Positions 19,923 to 51,918 of a DNA stretch of 64,000 nucleotides are shown in pieces. Positions within the stretch are counted from its first letter, which is position 1. The number at the start of each line of letters is the position of its first letter. The position numbers and the translations under genes are program-made. The notes below the pieces were generated by a model. The model did not search any database. It was not told where the DNA came from and was given only the letters and a program-made list of their open reading frames with translations. Location: the NCBI RefSeq assembly GCF_014695915.1, contig NZ_JACJPF010000069.1, forward strand, positions 1 through 64,000, given 5' to 3'. The stretch comes from Trichocoleus sp. FACHB-40. Its GTDB lineage: Bacteria > Cyanobacteriota > Cyanobacteriia > Cyanobacteriales > FACHB-T130.

Positions 19923-20501
19923 TTAATGACCGTTATTGCTTTGCGGCCGCTTCTTGAGAACTGTGGGAATCGCTTCTATGATTTGCTTGGCGATTTGTTC
20001 GGGAGTTTGCTCTTGGCTAATGGAGATTTGCAGGTCTGCTTGCGCGTAGAGCGGCTGGCGTTGGTGGCAACGGTTTTCCAATTCGGTAGCTAGGTCAGCG
20101 TTTTTTAACAAAGGTCGGGTGGTATCGTTTTGCAGACGGGCGACTAAAAGTTCTACTGGTGCGTCTAACCACACTACTAGACCGTATTGCAGATAGCCCC
20201 AATTTTCTAGGCGCAGGATAATGCCGCCGCCAGTGGCGATCGCTAACCTGGTAAAAGCTGACATTTCCTGTAGCACTTTGCTTTCCATCTGTCGGAAGCT
20301 GTCTTCACCGTCACTGACAAAAATATCGTTAATGGATTTACCAGCAGCTTTCTCAATTACGCTATCGGTGTCCACAAAACCGTAACCCAGCTGCTGGGCA
20401 AGTAATTTCCCTACGCTGGTCTTCCCAGCACCCATCATCCCCACCAGATAGATATTGATGCCCTTGAGCGATTCCCTAACTTGACGATTATTGTTTTCCA
20501 T
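19923..20501 (-). CDS. aroK: Shikimate kinase
   Basis: 192 residues. It phosphorylates shikimate at the 3-OH in aromatic amino acid synthesis. The P-loop is GMMGAGKTS at about residues 21-29; VDTDSVIEK (the shikimate-binding DxD region), the GGG of IATGGGIILR, and RPLL follow in order. The ATG at 20501 is the only sensible start. It is followed by argB on the same strand. Confidence 0.94.
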   Translation of the reverse strand: MENNNRQVRESLKGINIYLVGMMGAGKTSVGKLLAQQLGYGFVDTDSVIEKAAGKSINDIFVSDGEDSFRQMESKVLQEMSAFTRLAIATGGGIILRLENWGYLQYGLVVWLDAPVELLVARLQNDTTRPLLKNADLATELENRCHQRQPLYAQADLQISISQEQTPEQIAKQIIEAIPTVLKKRPQSNNGH

Positions 20502-20611: not shown

Positions 20612-22108
20612 TTACCTATTACCATATATATCAAAATTTTGTAAGACTACCTCTTTCAAATTTCGTAGTGAAGGTTGCCACTTTTCCACCAATCCACCCC
20701 GCACACAGCTTTTCACCCAAGGATGCAAATTATATCGTGGATTGTGTATCTCCAAATCTTGTAAATCTTCAATTAAATACCATCGTCGTAGCTCAGCGAT
20801 CGCTATGTCCAAATCTTCTTCCAGGAACTTCCAATCTCTAGACAAATCTGCTCTGCTGACGCTTACATCGCTCCCAGCTATATAACGCAGTATGGTCTGT
20901 GCTGGCACACCGATTCGTTGCCAAGTTGGCTCCAGACAGAAGCGATAGAATGTTTCAAGTGGTCGGCTGGTTGCTGAAAGTTCCGACAATACTGGCTCAA
21001 GTGTACGAACGTGAAAAATACGCCCCACCAAAAAATGTAGTGCTAGCGGTGCGCCGCAAGAAAACTCATGCAATTGATGTAACTGTTCATCACTTGCCTG
21101 GCTAAGTATCGCTAGATTATTGTATTTTGCCTCATCAGCTAACAAAATGTGTGACCATTTTTCTTCAAGTCTTGGAACTTCAATTAATCCTAAGTATGGA
21201 GGTTTTATCCTAAGTCTGCTGGTTAACAACGCTCGGCTGGGGTTAAGCATCTTGACAAGATTCCCCACAATATTCTCAATTTGTGCAGTTTCAGCGTTGT
21301 CTAATACGAGTAGCAGCTTTTCTTCTCTAAGACGCTGGTGAACTTGCTCTACAGGGCAAGCTAGTTGATATGCTATTTCCTTGATAAATTGCTGCCAACT
21401 AAGAGATTTAAAAGGCTTTTCAAAGCTAATATAACCATCAACTAATTCGCTTTGTCGAGCCGTAACCCATAGCACATCACTAAAGAGATTTCTTTTAAGT
21501 GCTTCTTTGGCAACAAAACTCGCAGCTTCCGATTTCCCATACCCCGGACTGCCAGTAAGCGAGAGGATAGATACTTCATTCGGATCGCAAATCCGCTGCA
21601 ATATTTCTTCAATTAAGTTATCTCTTCCCCACACACTCCGGCAGCGAGTATTTGGTATAAATACCCCTATCTGGCGTTTTGAGTTCTCATTTTGTGGCGT
21701 AGCGGCTGACGTTTTTAGCTCTGGCTGCGATGAAGAACATCCGACAACAGGAGTTGCCAACGAGCAGTTTTGAGTAACTACTAACTCCCTATCGGTTGTG
21801 TCTTGAACCTGCTGGTATAAGTCTATCCATTCATCGTATGAACAGTTGAGTAACAGTTGACATAAGCCGTTGGCAATCCGATATTCGCAGGTGTGGCGAC
21901 TTTCTGATTCCAAAATAGCTCGTAAAGCTTGGCGTGATGGTTCAGGTGTATCGAGTTGTTTCCGCCACGCGCTTAAAAAGTCTTGTATTAGGGCCCGGTT
22001 GCCATTTGGCTTATATCTTTTTTTAAACTCATCATGTAGCTTTTGCTTCAAACTCCCGGATAAATAAACGTTACTATTGCCTCTTTTGATTTCAGATGCA
22101 CCAGTCAT
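20612..22108 (-). CDS. NB-ARC-like STAND ATPase with N-terminal helical domain (cassette A)
   Basis: 498 residues. Residues 1-110 are a helical domain I do not recognise (SLKQKLHDEFKKRYK; an ILESESRH segment). The ATPase has the P-loop GSPGYGKS at 186-193, Walker B KLLLVLDNAE with Asp270, ALLTSR at about 295, and CGAPLAL as the GxP motif, then a winged-helix-like end with SVSRADLS and IAELRRWYLI. No WD40, TPR or LRR sensor follows, so this is a short STAND protein. It diverges from the small gene at 22350. STAND ATPases are signalling switches, often in defence; that role is inferred. It begins a region where the same gene pair occurs twice. Confidence 0.75.
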   Translation of the reverse strand: MTGASEIKRGNSNVYLSGSLKQKLHDEFKKRYKPNGNRALIQDFLSAWRKQLDTPEPSRQALRAILESESRHTCEYRIANGLCQLLLNCSYDEWIDLYQQVQDTTDRELVVTQNCSLATPVVGCSSSQPELKTSAATPQNENSKRQIGVFIPNTRCRSVWGRDNLIEEILQRICDPNEVSILSLTGSPGYGKSEAASFVAKEALKRNLFSDVLWVTARQSELVDGYISFEKPFKSLSWQQFIKEIAYQLACPVEQVHQRLREEKLLLVLDNAETAQIENIVGNLVKMLNPSRALLTSRLRIKPPYLGLIEVPRLEEKWSHILLADEAKYNNLAILSQASDEQLHQLHEFSCGAPLALHFLVGRIFHVRTLEPVLSELSATSRPLETFYRFCLEPTWQRIGVPAQTILRYIAGSDVSVSRADLSRDWKFLEEDLDIAIAELRRWYLIEDLQDLEIHNPRYNLHPWVKSCVRGGLVEKWQPSLRNLKEVVLQNFDIYGNR

Positions 22109-22349
22109 AATAAATACAACTAAATCTTATTAAGACTCTGCCTTAAGTAATAACATTGGATTTCTATAAATTAATCCAATGTTATTAATATATCCGCTTA
22201 TGAAAAGTTTATGTTAACTTTAAATTTCTTTTAAATTAACTTTAAATTACTGTAATCTACATTCAGTGATGCTACTGTTGCTTAATAAGGCTAAATCGTA
22301 AAATCCCAGTAATTCCACTTAGGTTGACAAGTTTTTGGGGGTGCTACCC

Positions 22350-22583
22350 ATGAAGAGTAAAGTGATTAATATCCGTGAAGTTGTCCAACAGGCTATGACG
22401 ACGGGCTATCTTACCATCGCAGCCGAGGAGCAACTGCGGAGACTTCTAACCACGAAGTATGGCTTTGAAGATTTCAAAGCCTTTATGAAGTTGCAGCAAG
22501 CAGCAATGGAGGGTCAGGTTCGCCAAGAGTCTCGCGAATTAGCGCGACAAAAGCAGCTTTCCCGGCATTTAAGAGCTTCATAG
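22350..22583 (+). CDS. Small helical protein A, paralogue of protein B
   Basis: 77 residues from the ATG at 22350 (a TTG at 22335 is also in frame). Mostly helical: INIREVVQQAMTTGYLTIAA, then EEQLRRLLTTKYGFED, then an LQQAAM segment and an Arg/Gln-rich end. It is clearly paralogous to the gene at 24537, with more than half of the aligned residues the same. No known domain is recognised. A small hairpin (GGGT-GCT-ACCC) sits directly before the ATG. It lies divergent from the STAND ATPase at 20612-22108, about 240 bp away. Confidence 0.7.
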   Translation: MKSKVINIREVVQQAMTTGYLTIAAEEQLRRLLTTKYGFEDFKAFMKLQQAAMEGQVRQESRELARQKQLSRHLRAS

Positions 22584-22745
22584 CGAGACAAAAATCCGGA
22601 TGGTTGAGGTTCATAGCTTTCAAAAATCCAAAATTAACTATTGATGACTCCTCCAAGAATTATTTTCCTATGCCTCGCTGGGAGGATTAATTAATACTAG
22701 GCTGATTAAGAAAGCAACAGATTTAGCAGTTATTTCTCCCTAAAC

Positions 22746-24155
22746 CTACTCAACTAATTTTTCTGCTAGATACGCTCTGACTACTGGTAGCAGCGTGAAG
22801 TTTGTTAAGTTTTTCTCCAGAAGCGATCGCCTCCGCAAAGATTCAATTGCTTCCATCTGTTCCCGTTTCGATATTCCTGGTGCAATCTCCTCTTGCAAGG
22901 CACCTACAGAAACAGACTTGTGACGAATTGCCAGCCAGTACATTACTTTTCTTTCTATATTCGATAAGCGCTCAAAATGTATATCTAGTAAATCGCGGAC
23001 ATCGCCAAAAACCACAATTTCTTTTGATAAAAAGTCTGTAATATTACCGTTGAAAATATCTTTGATTGTCGTTGCTACAATTTTGAGGATTAACGGATTA
23101 CCGCTATAACGGTTAATTAAAACTCGGCATTCTTCTGGGTTGCCAATCAAACCTTTGAGTTGCAACAGTTCTTGTGCATTGGATGCTGCCAAACCCCGCA
23201 ATTCAAGACAGCGAACAGGTAGGTTTGCGCCTTCGAGTGCGGCAATTTCTTTGGGTTTTTCCCGGCTGGTGAGAATGCAGCAGCTGGGATGGCGTTCTTC
23301 TCCTAAGCGTCGAAATAGTTCTCCATACACCTGATATTCGTAGCTATAATAACCAGCATTTTTGCCACTGCATAAAACCGCTTCAGCTTGATCCAGAATC
23401 AGTAAACAGCGGCGACTTCGGATATAAGTCATCAAGCGAGAAATTGTCACTTCTGCCGATAGGCTGTCTACTGTTTCTTGTCCTTGAGACAGAAATTGAA
23501 TCAAAGAAGCCACCAGATCCTGAATCGATGGCGCATGACGAAGCGATCGCCAGATGACAAACTCAAAGTTTTCGCTTATTTGTTCTGCCAACTTTACAGC
23601 AAGAGCAGTTTTACCGATTCCCCCCATGCCTAGCAACGCCACCAAGCGGCAGCTGTCGTTAACAATCCACTGTTCTAAAGTTGCTAGTTCTTCTTGAGAA
23701 CCATAGAAGTCTTCTACATCTATAACTTCTTCCCAATCTTGGTGCTGATCAGCAACTACTGTAGACTGTAACGTCTCTTCTGTCTCGCTTTGATTTTGTT
23801 CTGGCAAATTAACAGATTCAGTTTTATATCCTGCTTTGGATAGCAAGTTAGTAACGCGGCTCCAGTTCTTTATCTTTATTGTGTCGCCAGTCTGACGAAT
23901 TAGAAGTTCCTGAATATATTTATATAATCCATTGGATAAATAGACTCTAACGGCACTCGAAGTGCGACTTTTGTAGACAGTATCTGCAATTTCGGCAGGA
24001 GAGTAACCACACAGTAAGCCTCTCAAGAATTTTTTTTCAACTGGTGTCAGGCTTCTACCTTTGGCAGAAGCTAAGTCTATGTATAGTTTTTCCAGATTCC
24101 AGTTATTTGCCGCCTCTTGAAAATCAGCTTCCTGTTCATTAACAGTTGATTCCAT
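22746..24155 (-). CDS. NB-ARC STAND ATPase with N-terminal vMAP-type HTH (cassette B)
   Basis: 469 residues from the ATG at 24155; a TTG seven codons upstream is an alternative. Residues about 33-85 form a helical HTH-like domain (LTPVEKKFLRGLLCGYSPAEIADTV) of the kind found at the front of cyanobacterial NACHT/NB-ARC proteins. The P-loop is GMGGIGKT at about 176-183, Walker B is CLLILDQAE, then ILTSRE, SGNPLILKI and a winged helix (ISKREQMEAIESLRRRSLLEK). The protein stops right after the winged helix, so the usual C-terminal sensor repeats are absent. It is on the same strand as the first STAND gene and diverges from small gene B. Confidence 0.8.
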   Translation of the reverse strand: MESTVNEQEADFQEAANNWNLEKLYIDLASAKGRSLTPVEKKFLRGLLCGYSPAEIADTVYKSRTSSAVRVYLSNGLYKYIQELLIRQTGDTIKIKNWSRVTNLLSKAGYKTESVNLPEQNQSETEETLQSTVVADQHQDWEEVIDVEDFYGSQEELATLEQWIVNDSCRLVALLGMGGIGKTALAVKLAEQISENFEFVIWRSLRHAPSIQDLVASLIQFLSQGQETVDSLSAEVTISRLMTYIRSRRCLLILDQAEAVLCSGKNAGYYSYEYQVYGELFRRLGEERHPSCCILTSREKPKEIAALEGANLPVRCLELRGLAASNAQELLQLKGLIGNPEECRVLINRYSGNPLILKIVATTIKDIFNGNITDFLSKEIVVFGDVRDLLDIHFERLSNIERKVMYWLAIRHKSVSVGALQEEIAPGISKREQMEAIESLRRRSLLEKNLTNFTLLPVVRAYLAEKLVE

Positions 24156-24176
24156 TACCCTGCGTTGCCATCCCAA

Positions 24177-24536
24177 TTCAAGATTGCCAACGCCTGATTT
24201 TAACTGATTAATTATGAAATACTAACGAACTAACGATAAAGTTATAACGAATTTAATAACGTCTGTTAGGTGTAGTTTACGGAATCTTTTAGTTATCCTT
24301 AATTTTATGGAGACTTCATCGAACTTTCATCTAAACTTTATTAAATATTTACAGGGTGTGGAGGGAAAAGGAGATGAGGCTACGGTTTTCCTTGAGTTTA
24401 GACAGTTGTGGCAGTTTCAGCTACGTAAGTGGTATCTTTCCCCGTTCTCAGATATGGCATCCGCAAATCTACTTAAGCGAGTTGAGCATTTAAAAAATCG
24501 GTGTTTGCTCTTGACGTTTTTCTAGGTAATAACCAC
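24177..24536. other. Divergent intergenic region of cassette B
   Basis: An AT-rich region between the STAND ATPase and small gene B; it should hold both promoters. A 72-codon frame at 24307-24525 was judged non-coding: it resembles nothing, and its end overlaps the leader of gene B. The last 35 bases resemble the matching leader of cassette A (TTGAC, a T-run, then GGT-loop-ACC before the start codon). Confidence 0.5.
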
Positions 24537-24728
24537 ATGATGCTAATCCGTGAACTTGTCCAACAGGCTCTAGCCATCGGCTACTTAACGATAGAAGCTG
24601 AAGAACAACTGCGACAGCTGCTCAAAAAAAAGTATGACAGAGAGGATCTGAACGCCTTTATGACCTTACAGCAAGCGGCTATGGCTGGACACGTAAAGCA
24701 GCAATCCCGCGAACTACTACGCTCATAA
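24537..24728 (+). CDS. Small helical protein B, paralogue of protein A
   Basis: 63 residues from the ATG at 24537; a second ATG follows immediately. The sequence LIRELVQQALAIGYLTIEA, then EEQLRQLLKKKYDREDLNAF, then LQQAAM and a QQSREL end, aligns almost without gaps with the protein at 22350-22583. It ends earlier, lacking the last ten or so residues of protein A. No domain is recognised. As in cassette A it is divergent from a STAND ATPase, about 380 bp away, which argues that the pairing is not chance. Confidence 0.7.
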   Translation: MMLIRELVQQALAIGYLTIEAEEQLRQLLKKKYDREDLNAFMTLQQAAMAGHVKQQSRELLRS

Positions 24729-24801: not shown

Positions 24802-25515
24802 TCACGCTCTTGGCTTGTCGCTGCGCCAATCATCCTCAAAGTTGTCTTCGTCCTCATCTTCAAATCCCCAGTCATCCTCATCCTGATTGGTTTCCGGGGT
24901 GGGTGGTTGATAGGGCGGCGTAATCACGCGGTAATTGGCGTCATAAACCGCCTCAGTTTTTCCAACGCCGGAATTCTTTGGTTCCCGGTAGCTATAAGAA
25001 TAGACTGAGCCAGCTCGTGAGGCGCTTTTTGGTTCTTGCCTAACTTCGTACCTCGTGCGGTCTTCTTCGGGAAAATTTTGAGGACTGGTGTCTGCGGCGG
25101 CTGGCTTCTCCTCAAAATCCCACTCATCGTCATCAGTAGTGCTGGTATCCTCTTCCCAGTCATCTTCATAGGACTCGGTGTTTTTAGTTTCCGGTGGTGG
25201 TGGAGGGGGAGGGGTGTAAGGGGTTTGTTGAGTATCATCCCCAGTTTCGCGCCGTCGCCAGTTAGAACGAGTTGATTCGGCTTCTAGTTTTTCCAGTTTG
25301 CGGATGCGCGATCGCAAAGGACGTTGTTGCAGATAGCTGAAAAATTGCAACAAACCGCTAACGATCGCGCCAGATGCGATCGCTACTATTATCCACACCG
25401 CCAGAGGTAGCGCCTGCGTCCTCGCCCCGAAAAACACTATCGACAACGGCGACAAGTTTTGAATGGCAAATAAAGCCAGAGTTCCCAGCAGCAAAAATAC
25501 CAGCAAAATCCGCAT
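24802..25515 (-). CDS. LapA-domain (DUF1049) membrane protein with acidic tail
   Basis: 237 residues. Two membrane helices at the N-terminus (about 3-23 and 38-62: LLVFLLLGTLALFAIQNLSP; VWIIVAIASGAIVSGLLQFF) form the LapA domain with the Q-N-x-x-P turn. A basic coiled coil (RIRKLEKLEAE) follows, then a long disordered region rich in Asp, Glu and Pro, with W-E-E-D/W-D-F-E-E/W-G-F-E-D-E-D clusters up to the end. In proteobacteria LapA/B regulate lipopolysaccharide synthesis; the role in cyanobacteria is not known. It sits about 46 bp downstream of ubiX on the same strand. Confidence 0.8.
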   Translation of the reverse strand: MRILLVFLLLGTLALFAIQNLSPLSIVFFGARTQALPLAVWIIVAIASGAIVSGLLQFFSYLQQRPLRSRIRKLEKLEAESTRSNWRRRETGDDTQQTPYTPPPPPPPETKNTESYEDDWEEDTSTTDDDEWDFEEKPAAADTSPQNFPEEDRTRYEVRQEPKSASRAGSVYSYSYREPKNSGVGKTEAVYDANYRVITPPYQPPTPETNQDEDDWGFEDEDEDNFEDDWRSDKPRA

Positions 25516-48658: not shown

Positions 48659-50104
48659 CTATGAACCGGAAATTACCCTCTTGCCGTCTGCTGTCACTGC
48701 CACAGTAATTACCTCATTACTATGACCTGTGAAGGTGCAACTGTCTTTTTCCTTTGCCGTTTCCAGATTCCAAACCTTGAGAGTATTGTCCAATGAACCA
48801 GAAATCACCCTCTTGCCATCAGGTGTTACTGCCACAGCTTCTACTGAGAATGCATCACCTGTAAAGGTGAAAAGTTCCTCTCCTGTTTCCAGATTCCAGA
48901 CCTTGAGAGTGTTGTCAGATGAACCAGAAATCGCCAGTTTGCCATCAGGTGTCACTGCCACAGCATTTACCCTATCGCGATGACCATAGAGGGTGACAAC
49001 TTCCTCTCCTGTCTCCAAATTCCAAATTTTGAGAGTGTTGTCAGATGAACCAGAAATTACCTGTTTGCTATCGGGTGTTACTACCACAGCATTTACCTCT
49101 CTGTGATGACCATAGAGGGTGACAACTTCCTCTCCTGTCTCCAAATTCCAAATTTTGAGAGTGTTGTCATCTAAATCAAAAAAACTACCTGAACCAGAAA
49201 TCACCCGCTTACTATCAGGTGTCACTGCCACAGCGTTTATCCTGTCGGTATGACCTTTTAGGGTGAAAAGTTCCTCTTTAGTTTCCAAATCCCAGACTTT
49301 GAGAATGGTGTCCCAAGAATCAGAAACACTACCTGAACCAGAAATCAGCCGTTTGCCATCAGGTGTCACTGCCAGAGCATTTACTGACCAGGTATGATCT
49401 TTTAGGGTGAAAAGTTCCTCTTTAGTTTTTAAATCCCAGATTTTGAGAGTGCCATTAGCTAAACTAGCAATTTTCCATTTCCCATCAGGTGTCACTGTCA
49501 CCTCATATACCTCGTCAGTATGACCTGTGAAAGTTTTTAGTTCTTGTCCAGTCTCAAAATTCCAGACTTTGAGGGTTTTATCTGATGAAGCTGATACTAC
49601 CTGTTTACCATTGGGAGTGATAGCGACTGCCGTAACCCTATCGGTGTGACCGATGAGGGTGCGTAGCAACCTGCCATCAGGTGAGATCAAGTTAGGTGTT
49701 AAGGGGCGCAGCCAGTTGGATTTCCTCTGCCTTGCCTGTTCCAGCATCGCCTGAATTTCTGGTGCTTTAAAGGACATCAAACGCCCCAAAAATTGCCCTG
49801 CCAGTTGGGTTGTGTCTTTATCAAACACATGCGCCGACAACCGAAGCGCCCCTTGAATTAATCTCAGAGTCTCCGCTTTTTCTCCAGAGAGCAAGACATC
49901 AGGATTGAAAGCCAAATCGTAATCCTCAATAAGCGGCTGTACCCCCAAAGCAGAAACTTTCGCATCAATGAAATCGAAATCAGCCAGGAGACGGTGCAAT
50001 CGCTCCGCTTGGAGTGTTTCAGCTAGTGTCCTTGGTAAAACCTTCAAAGTACATCGCTGCCTATCCGGCGGCATACTAGCTAACCGGACACGGAAATTAC
50101 TCAT
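48659..50104 (-). CDS. WD40 sensor partner of the HEPN-NACHT ATPase
   Basis: 481 residues from the ATG at 50104, which overlaps the stop of the upstream ATPase (ATGAGTAA); an ATG two codons earlier is also possible. An open frame reaches 50338, but that part is antisense-like shadow of the ATPase gene. Residues about 1-145 form a helical linker (ERLHRLLADFDFIDAKVSALG, LSAHVFDKDTTQLAGQF) typical of the region between the ATPase and the propeller in cyanobacterial NACHT-WD40 proteins. Seven WD40 repeats follow, of the GHTDRVNAVAVTPDGKRVISGS and SDNTLKVWNLETGEEL type, then repeat 8 is cut by TAG. The propeller would bind the trigger. Repeats are very alike at DNA level. Confidence 0.8.
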   Translation of the reverse strand: MSNFRVRLASMPPDRQRCTLKVLPRTLAETLQAERLHRLLADFDFIDAKVSALGVQPLIEDYDLAFNPDVLLSGEKAETLRLIQGALRLSAHVFDKDTTQLAGQFLGRLMSFKAPEIQAMLEQARQRKSNWLRPLTPNLISPDGRLLRTLIGHTDRVTAVAITPNGKQVVSASSDKTLKVWNFETGQELKTFTGHTDEVYEVTVTPDGKWKIASLANGTLKIWDLKTKEELFTLKDHTWSVNALAVTPDGKRLISGSGSVSDSWDTILKVWDLETKEELFTLKGHTDRINAVAVTPDSKRVISGSGSFFDLDDNTLKIWNLETGEEVVTLYGHHREVNAVVVTPDSKQVISGSSDNTLKIWNLETGEEVVTLYGHRDRVNAVAVTPDGKLAISGSSDNTLKVWNLETGEELFTFTGDAFSVEAVAVTPDGKRVISGSLDNTLKVWNLETAKEKDSCTFTGHSNEVITVAVTADGKRVISGS

Positions 50105-51740
50105 CCCCATATGCCCCCTTCCATAGATCATCTGCAATCTCAGCCTTAATGCTCTGAAGCGCCACTCCAGCTGCTTGAACAATGTCCTTGCGATACAGAA
50201 AATCGCAGAAGCTTGAGTGATAGATGCTGTAACAGGTTTGACTATCAACCTGCTCCTTGCGTAAAAACTGCTCCCACTCGTCAAGTACCTCCTGCACTGT
50301 GAAAGCATCCTTTTTAACAAGGTCGGTAAGTAGCTCACGGGACAAAGGTTCGCGGAATTCCCCCAGAAAGTAGACGATGTTTATTTTGGTGCGCGGTAGC
50401 GGCTTGGCAGCCATGCCCATGCGCCGCCAGTGGTCTTCATAGTAAGCCTCCAGACCTTGCGGCAGACTCTTGATGCTCAAATCTCCGTACTTGCCGTTCT
50501 TGATATCCGGCAGCACGTATTTGAGATACATGAAATTGTTCTCGCTCTTGTTGGCAAGCTGGGTGATGAACTTCTCCACCGTCAGCCCCTTTTCATAAAT
50601 CCAGGCCTGTAGCTGCGATGATTTCTTTATCTCGCCCCGAATGTAAGTCTGGATGTCTTGCAAACTTTCAGCTTGGTACTGCATCAAGTCAAACCGATGC
50701 GGAGGCGTGTTAACGGTTAAGGGTAGAGTGCCAGGTCGCTGCGTCATCACGAAGTAGACACCCTTATGCAAGGTAGCAGGCAGGTAGAGGAGATTTGCAC
50801 CACCTTGGTCAGCCCGCTCCACCTCATCCAGCGCGTCAATGGCTATTACCAACCGCTCACCTGTTTTAAGTTTGGCACTGACTTCACCCAGCAGTTGAGC
50901 GAAAAATTGACCGTCTCGCGTGGTGTCAGGTGGTAGCGAGGAGTAGGACAAATTGTAGCGGGAGATCAGTTGGGTGCAGACATTCTTGAGGAATCGTTCA
51001 ACGCTGGTGATCCCTTGGGAACGAACATTGAAATGAGCCACACACCCAGTCTTCTGAACGTATTTGGCGAGAATAGCGCTTTTGCCGATACCGGGTTCGC
51101 CTTCGATAATAAAGTAGCCGTTGGGCTGGTTGGTCAGGAAGTTCTCTATTGCCTCAAACACAAATTCACGCCCGACAAACCCCTCCGTCTTTTCCTCAAT
51201 TAGCTTCTGCTGTTCCTTGTCTTCAACCTGAGTCTTCTCTTGCAGTAACGGCACCACTTCCTGCATCAGCACTTCCATCTTTTTTGCCGCCTCCTCAGCA
51301 GAGATAGCACTGAGCAACTGGTAAATCCTATCCAGTTCCCGGTAAGTATATCTGGGCGTAAAATCTTGCAGCTTGTTCCAGTCTTTCAGGCGTGGGTGCG
51401 CCCACTTGCGGCGTACATCTCTCAACTTGAACACCAAATCAATATCGTTGCGACTCAGGACAGACTCAAACACCTCTTGCCGTTGGTTGATAATCACCTG
51501 AATCAGCGCTTGGGAATCCTCCAGATTGATGCGATCGCTTTCAATGTGAAACTCTTTATCCCCCAGGCATCCCTTAGCAACCTCTTCCCAGCCATCGCCA
51601 TGAAACTTTTGCATTTGACCCTCGACAAATGGCTGGAGTCCCTGAGCGAGATATATCAATCCTCTGCCAACCCGCTCGTGATTCCTAAGCAGAAGCTCTT
51701 CTTGTTCCCTGTCAAAAGGCTTCCGAGCGCTCTTAGCCAT
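50097..51740 (-). CDS. HEPN-NACHT/STAND ATPase, probable defence effector
   Basis: 547 residues from the ATG at 51740, with GAGGGAGAG eight bases upstream; the ATG at 51758 lacks such a site. Residues about 15-125 resemble the Swt1-type HEPN domain (RGLIYLAQGLQPFVEGQM), with an R-x4-H RNase motif at R110-H115 (RRKWAH). A NACHT-like ATPase follows: P-loop EGEPGIGKS at about 213-221, Walker B LVIAIDALDE at about 297-306, then MTQRPG and a winged-helix region. It ends IADDLWKGAYGDE. Together with the coupled WD40 partner it forms a split NLR-like module. Predicted action: RNA cleavage on recognition, for instance of phage. This role is inferred. Confidence 0.82.
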   Translation of the reverse strand: MAKSARKPFDREQEELLLRNHERVGRGLIYLAQGLQPFVEGQMQKFHGDGWEEVAKGCLGDKEFHIESDRINLEDSQALIQVIINQRQEVFESVLSRNDIDLVFKLRDVRRKWAHPRLKDWNKLQDFTPRYTYRELDRIYQLLSAISAEEAAKKMEVLMQEVVPLLQEKTQVEDKEQQKLIEEKTEGFVGREFVFEAIENFLTNQPNGYFIIEGEPGIGKSAILAKYVQKTGCVAHFNVRSQGITSVERFLKNVCTQLISRYNLSYSSLPPDTTRDGQFFAQLLGEVSAKLKTGERLVIAIDALDEVERADQGGANLLYLPATLHKGVYFVMTQRPGTLPLTVNTPPHRFDLMQYQAESLQDIQTYIRGEIKKSSQLQAWIYEKGLTVEKFITQLANKSENNFMYLKYVLPDIKNGKYGDLSIKSLPQGLEAYYEDHWRRMGMAAKPLPRTKINIVYFLGEFREPLSRELLTDLVKKDAFTVQEVLDEWEQFLRKEQVDSQTCYSIYHSSFCDFLYRKDIVQAAGVALQSIKAEIADDLWKGAYGDE

Positions 51741-51918
51741 TGGTCTGCTCTCCCTCATCGCAACGGTCAGCTATCTAATCCCATTGTGACCCAATCATTA
51801 TGGCTATCTTGGCATGGGTTGACCTTTCCAGAAACACTCTCAATAAAGAGCGATCGCATCCCATCCCTGCCAAGCAAGCTTTAAGATGAAGATGTATTAA
51901 CAACGCGCTTATCGCTTC

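Follow-up and report, generated by a model that had tools for sequence, protein, structure and literature searches.

In this study, we examined two neighbouring gene pairs in a 64,000-nucleotide stretch of DNA from the cyanobacterium Trichocoleus sp. FACHB-40 (the window), in each of which a minus-strand gene for a STAND-type NB-ARC ATPase (ATPase1 and ATPase2) is divergent from a plus-strand gene for a small protein (small A and small B). We consider it established, from sequence profiles together with a predicted fold, that the small proteins are homologues of the N-terminal three-helix domain of the cyclic di-GMP (c-di-GMP) receptor CdgR, a ComFB protein, and that they occur in free-standing form without the ComFB domain. 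What ties the ATPase to the small gene is mainly the locus in which they lie, and the pairing is real but local. Our best explanation as a whole joins this homology to a suggested role of the small protein as adaptor or competitor and a suggested role of ATPase2 as regulator at an inherited locus, and we put its probability at roughly 0.4. Genomes and loci are denoted below by G and L numbers. The two pairs comprise the following features:

20612-22108, minus strand: ATPase1, 498 amino acids, with an N-terminal domain (about residues 1-110) followed by NB-ARC (Pfam expectation value, E, 1.5e-9) and no sensor repeats.
22109-22349, no strand: divergent intergenic region of pair 1.
22350-22583, plus strand: small A, 77 amino acids, a free-standing domain of the CdgR/ComFB N-terminal type with a C-terminal QESRE motif.
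22746 to 24155 or 24176, minus strand: ATPase2, 469 or 476 amino acids, with a probable LuxR/GerE-type helix-turn-helix (HTH), NB-ARC and a C-terminal region.
24156-24536, no strand: divergent intergenic region of pair 2.
24537-24728, plus strand: small B, 63 amino acids, of the same family as small A, modelled by AlphaFold2 with a predicted local distance difference test score (pLDDT) of 86.4.

At the outset, an iterated search that started from the small family drew in a ComFB protein of the same genome. With a profile of 75 family members, the CdgR N-terminus was matched at E<=0.001 in 50 of 60 genomes (manual count), at model positions of about 2-54 (2-30 alone in G031 and G054), and the places matched by the profile coincide with CdgR places mapped independently in 57 of the 60. 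The reverse profile, made from 30 CdgR N-termini, recovered 160 of 184 small open reading frames (ORFs; some of the loci overlap, and the number of distinct genes is smaller) at E<=0.1 together with no decoys and no unrelated non-CdgR proteins. The first decoy and the first unrelated protein appeared at E 0.86, and at E<=10 all 184 small ORFs were found along with 4 decoys and 5 unrelated ORFs; a profile of the CdgR C-terminus recovered none of the small ORFs. Aligned to each other with hhalign, the small family and the CdgR N-termini gave a probability of 96.4 and E 1.2e-9, as compared with probabilities of 0.1-0.2 for the reversed and C-terminal controls. The best sequence match of the family in the PDB is the c-di-GMP receptor 8hja (E 0.022), and the model of small B, which was built from 12 sequences, superimposes on residues 1-64 of this structure with a Z-score of 10.1 (root mean square deviation 1.7 over 62 residues), the next best match having a Z-score of 3.1. 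In Foldseek the same comparison reached E 0.033 with a query TM-score (TMq) of 0.81 and nothing was found at E<=0.001; a helical match at a Z-score of 10 would be modest if taken alone. It is because the fold match and the sequence evidence agree that we take the homology as established.

When set against CdgR of Anabaena and Synechocystis (PDB 8hja), the small proteins correspond to residues 1-64 by their sequence profile as well as by their predicted fold, but they differ in lacking the ComFB domain, in ending with a conserved QESRE tail that is not present in CdgR, and in occurring in several copies in many genomes. The ComFB domain (PF10719) had no match in small A or small B at E<=1, whereas CdgR of the same genome matches it at E 1.9e-21, and the small proteins therefore presumably lack the dinucleotide pocket. 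The mirror image of the small proteins, namely the ComFB part of CdgR without the N-terminal module, was seen at G040:C1:711445-711681 and G039:C4:8695-8943.

Small A and small B are identical at 41 of 59 positions (69%, E 8e-28), and the positions G19, L21, D41, A44, L48, G55 and Q59 are invariant in the family. Matches to small A at E<=0.001 occur in 117 of 148 genomes of the order, with up to ten per genome, and the weakest of them include CdgR; the profile of 75 members gave a match above 75 bits in 33 of 60 genomes (manual count). A draw of 98 genomes across the phylum, searched at E<=1e-8, contained the family in 19 of 32 genomes of the order, in 5 of 8 other members of the class and in none of the 58 from the rest of the phylum. 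Neither small protein exceeds the cut-off of any Pfam model and NCBIfam returned nothing of note; an assignment to PH_LRR1 (E 0.0044 for small A and 0.013 for small B) was rejected, both matches being under the curated cut-off. In this way a family that exceeds no Pfam cut-off, and has as many as ten matches per genome, can now be interpreted as a detached CdgR N-domain. Among the papers listed on NB-ARC and small cyanobacterial proteins, on asr1734, on EAD/VMAP and on CdgR/ComFB, we did not find free-standing CdgR N-domains described in the titles and opening parts of abstracts, and any novelty is provisional. A second, divergent subfamily, with proteins of mostly about 75-110 amino acids scoring about 37-66 bits, is present in many genomes of the order (G000:C52:5725-5895; L045, L005). 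A G-x-L-T and EE pattern resembling that of the family is also seen in small proteins encoded at L123:2258-2461, L083, L096 and L113:3719-4006, which are weak matches of the iterated profile.

CdgR is described as a dimer that binds c-di-GMP and c-di-AMP and acts partly via DevH, and its c-di-GMP-free form as mediating cell-size reduction and loss of viability (PMC12313861, PMC13075795). The ComFB domain is common to CdgR and ComFB of Bacillus subtilis, and the latter, whose models end at residue 88-91, is reported as an obligate dimer formed via the ComFB core (PMC4381287). Judging from its length, B. subtilis ComFB presumably does not have a CdgR-type N-domain, in which case the N-domain of CdgR is likely to be a partner-binding add-on rather than the dimer core. 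Since the B. subtilis core dimerises by itself, the N-domain appears more likely to provide a partner surface. A small protein of this type might dock at the site where the CdgR N-domain docks, be it on CdgR itself or on a partner such as the transcription factor DevH, and a free-standing copy of the N-domain would then act on CdgR-type binding surfaces as an adaptor or a competitor, which we infer to be its most likely role. Such copies would be natural modulators of the CdgR pathway. The wider idea, that a large unrecognized set of free-standing CdgR N-domains modulates the c-di-GMP/CdgR pathway and with it cell size and viability by competing for CdgR or its partners, some of them under the control of HTH-bearing STAND ATPases, is speculative and to our mind rather unlikely. 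If true, it would couple nucleotide-second-messenger control to STAND-type danger switches.

Both ATPases exceed the curated Pfam cut-off of 23.5 bits for NB-ARC (ATPase1 with 37.9 bits; ATPase2 with 53.3 bits, E 3.1e-14), and the original prediction, made from the DNA letters, that neither has a sensor repeat domain was borne out, as no WD40, TPR or other sensor repeat family matched either protein at E<=1. It had also been right in stating that their N-terminal domains differ: these align with different sets of proteins, and a weak NB-ARC core (36 of 149 residues identical, E 8e-4) is all that the two ATPases have in common. The N-domain of ATPase1 recurs on other STAND NTPases (AAA_35, nSTAND1 and NB-ARC), and three inspected relatives of the ATPase1 core from elsewhere (L133, L134, L139) carry other N-terminal regions. 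Compared with the PDB, the ATPase1 N-domain profile gave weak matches to a nickel-responsive regulator alone (E 0.45 and above), and single-sequence AlphaFold2 modelled the domain with a pLDDT of 49. The N-terminus of ATPase2 is probably a LuxR/GerE-type HTH, as suggested by its three best profile matches in the PDB (E 0.0012-0.0023), which are one transcriptional regulator and two response regulators, and, weakly, by Pfam matches of 16 N-domains of this type, 11 of which match GerE (best E 0.0029) and 5 Sigma70_r4_2 (best E 0.00094). HTH-bearing STAND regulators are represented by the MalT/AfsR type. ATPase2 is similar to these regulators in that it joins an NB-ARC switch to a probable LuxR-type HTH, but differs from them in that the predicted HTH is N-terminal and sensor repeats are missing.

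As had been proposed, the two divergent pairs stand side by side and all four genes are present, with small proteins of 77 and 63 amino acids; the likely start of ATPase2 is the ATG at 24155, which is favoured by the alignment of homologues. For the four genes, the ratio of non-synonymous to synonymous substitution rates (dN/dS) amounts to 0.11-0.34 in comparison with a genome of the same species, with few differing sites, and to 0.07-0.16 between two genomes of the same family, and with such low values they behave as real genes. The gene order, with Pfam assignments, is amino-acid kinase (which we take to be argB), shikimate kinase, ATPase1, small A, ATPase2, small B, LapA-domain gene, flavoprotein (presumably ubiX) and RNB-domain ribonuclease. 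The small gene occupies an old insertion point next to the shikimate kinase and LapA-domain genes, whose positions in the window, supported by synteny, are as follows:

19923-20501, minus strand: shikimate kinase gene, the left anchor (Pfam SKI, E 3e-52).
24802-25515, minus strand: LapA-domain gene, the right anchor (Pfam LapA_dom, E 3.1e-8).

We assigned 71 of the 148 genomes to classes at this locus by hand from listings. An ATPase is present in 20 of the 39 genomes with a small gene there and in none of the 32 without one (Fisher's exact test, 3.7e-7, uncorrected for kinship). A gene was taken to be at the locus if at least one anchor gene was near, and some of the 39 lack one anchor (e.g. 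G121, G147, G045 and G091); the 32 genomes with neither gene comprise 28 recognized by coordinates (anchor gap of at most 217 bases) and G043, G058, G076 and G093, in which the gaps are too short for an ATPase. The small genes at the locus number 43, of which 41 were flagged by script and two (L028 and L031) were placed by coordinates, short flanks having hidden their synteny; L106 and L107, which have a LapA-like neighbour but were not flagged, were counted as elsewhere. A divergent NB-ARC gene is the 5' neighbour of 24 of the 43, in 20 genomes, four of which have two pairs.

In the other 19 genomes the small gene has no intact ATPase beside it at the locus, and four of these have clear ATPase fragments and one a weak trace. 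The fragments adjoin an intact small gene in G085, G102, G067 and G103, the weak trace is in G035, and the small genes beside decayed ATPases have dN/dS values of 0.05-0.15, which indicates purifying selection. In the tree these five genomes fall among ATPase-bearing genomes of three families, and on this ground the ATPase has probably been lost at least three times at this locus. G091 (L068), which was counted as having a small gene without an intact ATPase, carries two short remnants, namely an ATPase trace of 28 residues towards shikimate kinase and, 3' of the small gene, a C-terminal fragment resembling ATPase2.

Only two genera, both of the window's family, were seen to have the second pair, ATPase1 being found beside a small gene in G000, G011, G039 and G062 and in no other of the 148 genomes; the other two genomes of the family in the draw have a single pair (G098) or the small gene alone (G081). 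The small proteins had been regarded as duplicates, and while they are clear homologues, duplication is not confirmed: in a tree of 77 small proteins over 65 columns the sisterhood of small A and small B is neither supported nor rejected (approximately unbiased test, p 0.466). In a FastTree analysis small A fell close to the TIR-linked genes of L007-L010, but the node had a support of 0.0.

Beyond this locus the association is sparse. We listed 159 distinct small genes, taking matches to small A best first together with a further set and merging identical ends, so that the sample leans to relatives of small A, and profiled their 5' neighbours for NB-ARC and AAA_35 alone, by which other STAND classes could be missed. 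Among the genes listed, 130 have no NB-ARC or AAA_35 5' neighbour (3 of these without any 5' gene in the stretch), which is largely the outcome that had been named as speaking for a chance pairing, that is, homologues mostly without a STAND neighbour. Of the 116 small genes elsewhere, five have a STAND-type 5' neighbour and these represent two loci, L066 with NB-ARC and L007-L010, a single locus in four genomes. At the latter an AAA_35 protein headed by an N-domain of the ATPase2 type takes the place of the NB-ARC gene, and a TIR domain was shown in the two that were scanned, the proteins of L008 and L009 being alike:

L007:264-2231: HTH-TIR-AAA_35 protein.
L010:1786-3774: HTH-TIR-AAA_35 protein.

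Another HTH-TIR-AAA_35 protein (L159:4531-6297) is encoded two genes from the small gene G065:C3:76800-77012. The neighbours at L084, L088 and L092 were rejected as STAND candidates, the one scanned (L084) being a Clp-type AAA protein. All 29 NB-ARC or AAA_35 5' neighbours are divergent, as compared with 56 divergent, 59 same-strand and 3 missing neighbours among the 118 small genes flagged by script as non-syntenic. Since the ATPase can decay while the small gene is kept, and genes of the ATPase2 type occur elsewhere without a small gene, the small gene does not depend on the ATPase nor this type of ATPase on the small gene. What looked like a pair in one window is therefore, as STAND-ATPase adjacency, largely explained by one inherited locus. 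Of the functional pair that was originally predicted, the divergent arrangement in 20 genomes and the absence, among the 71 classed genomes, of an ATPase at the locus without a small gene stand, but it is not an obligate switch-plus-effector pair.

Within our preferred explanation, ATPase2 would be a nucleotide-switched, HTH-bearing local regulator that acts on the divergent promoter common to both genes. This would account for the finding that the small gene can do without ATPase2, whereas ATPase2 was not found at the locus without a small gene. Several results weigh against this explanation. The HTH region of the window's ATPase2 itself matches no Pfam HTH family at E<=1, and when the divergent intergenic regions were searched for direct repeats against 40 shuffles each, neither region of the window exceeded the shuffles and no shared operator was found; repeats above the shuffles at a few single loci of both classes (e.g. 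L048 and L008 with an ATPase, L068 and L019 without) were not treated as signal. For the divergent orientation there are about three independent loci to count (p 0.12), and two independent loci among 116 are not above chance (p 0.10-0.32, with assumed STAND frequencies of 0.45-1%); if the five genes among 116 are counted singly, p falls to 0.0002-0.006, but four of them belong to a single locus shared by related genomes. Among the 29 full-length ATPase2-type matches listed, 19 are at the locus with a small gene next to them and 10 are elsewhere without one (manual count, 9 of the 10 inspected individually). This count is fairer than the inspected loci themselves, since L149-L158 and L160 for ATPase2, like L161-L164 for ATPase1, were picked for having no listed small gene near, and the absence of one there is partly by selection. 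Finally, the complete genome G058 has a small gene (L204, G058:C1:4101636-4101821) and no CdgR at E 1e-20, a search relaxed to E 1 giving a match with stop codons at 0.0095, one at 0.4 and nothing else. The G058 protein is the longest branch of the tree, and this counter-example cuts both ways because the copy is the most divergent one.

It is quite conceivable, if short of probable, that there is no functional pair at all and that the ATPase gene adjoins the small gene solely through an inherited old insertion, each working elsewhere in the cell. Synteny of the whole block, the lack of an NB-ARC or AAA_35 5' neighbour in 111 of the 116 small genes at other places, the loss of the ATPase without loss of the small gene and the ATPase2-type genes elsewhere without a small gene would all be expected in this case. 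Less easily accommodated are the lack of any ATPase in the 32 classed genomes without a small gene, the presence in the window's lineage of a different second ATPase divergent from a second small gene, and the HTH-domain AAA_35 protein in the same place at L007-L010. The original prediction, in which the ATPase is a STAND switch with the small protein as its own effector or regulator, draws on the divergent pairing in 20 genomes and on the second pair in one lineage, and we consider it improbable given the 130 of 159 listed small genes without a STAND-type 5' neighbour, the maintenance of the small gene under selection after decay of the ATPase, and a fold that is predicted to be the N-domain of a receptor.

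STAND and TIR domains are characteristic of conflict systems, and a toxin-antitoxin or conflict module in which the ATPase guards a toxic small protein might in addition be suggested by the match of ATPase2 to IetA in a defence library (E 6.7e-5), the best stretch of which, residues 37-98, is the HTH region. We regard such a module as very improbable, because small genes are widely found alone, survive the loss of the ATPase and in the same 130 of 159 cases have no NB-ARC or AAA_35 5' neighbour, and because the defence library gave no match for small A and for small B AbiEi alone, at E 0.019. The VMAP/EAD systems, described as ternary conflict systems of multicellular bacteria (PMC10907252, PMC8195603), are comparable in that in cyanobacteria they involve STAND NTPases whose N-terminal domains are HTH-like, and HTH-TIR-AAA_35 proteins stand beside the small genes of L007 and L010; they differ in that neither MoxR nor vWA was matched by any of the nine scanned proteins of the window locus and that Pfam gave no EAD match for the small proteins at E<=1. 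A likely conflict gene lies elsewhere in the window, at 50097-51758 on the minus strand, and its product of 553 amino acids combines STAND-like AAA domains with a Swt1-like HEPN domain at the N-terminus (E 6.6e-21).

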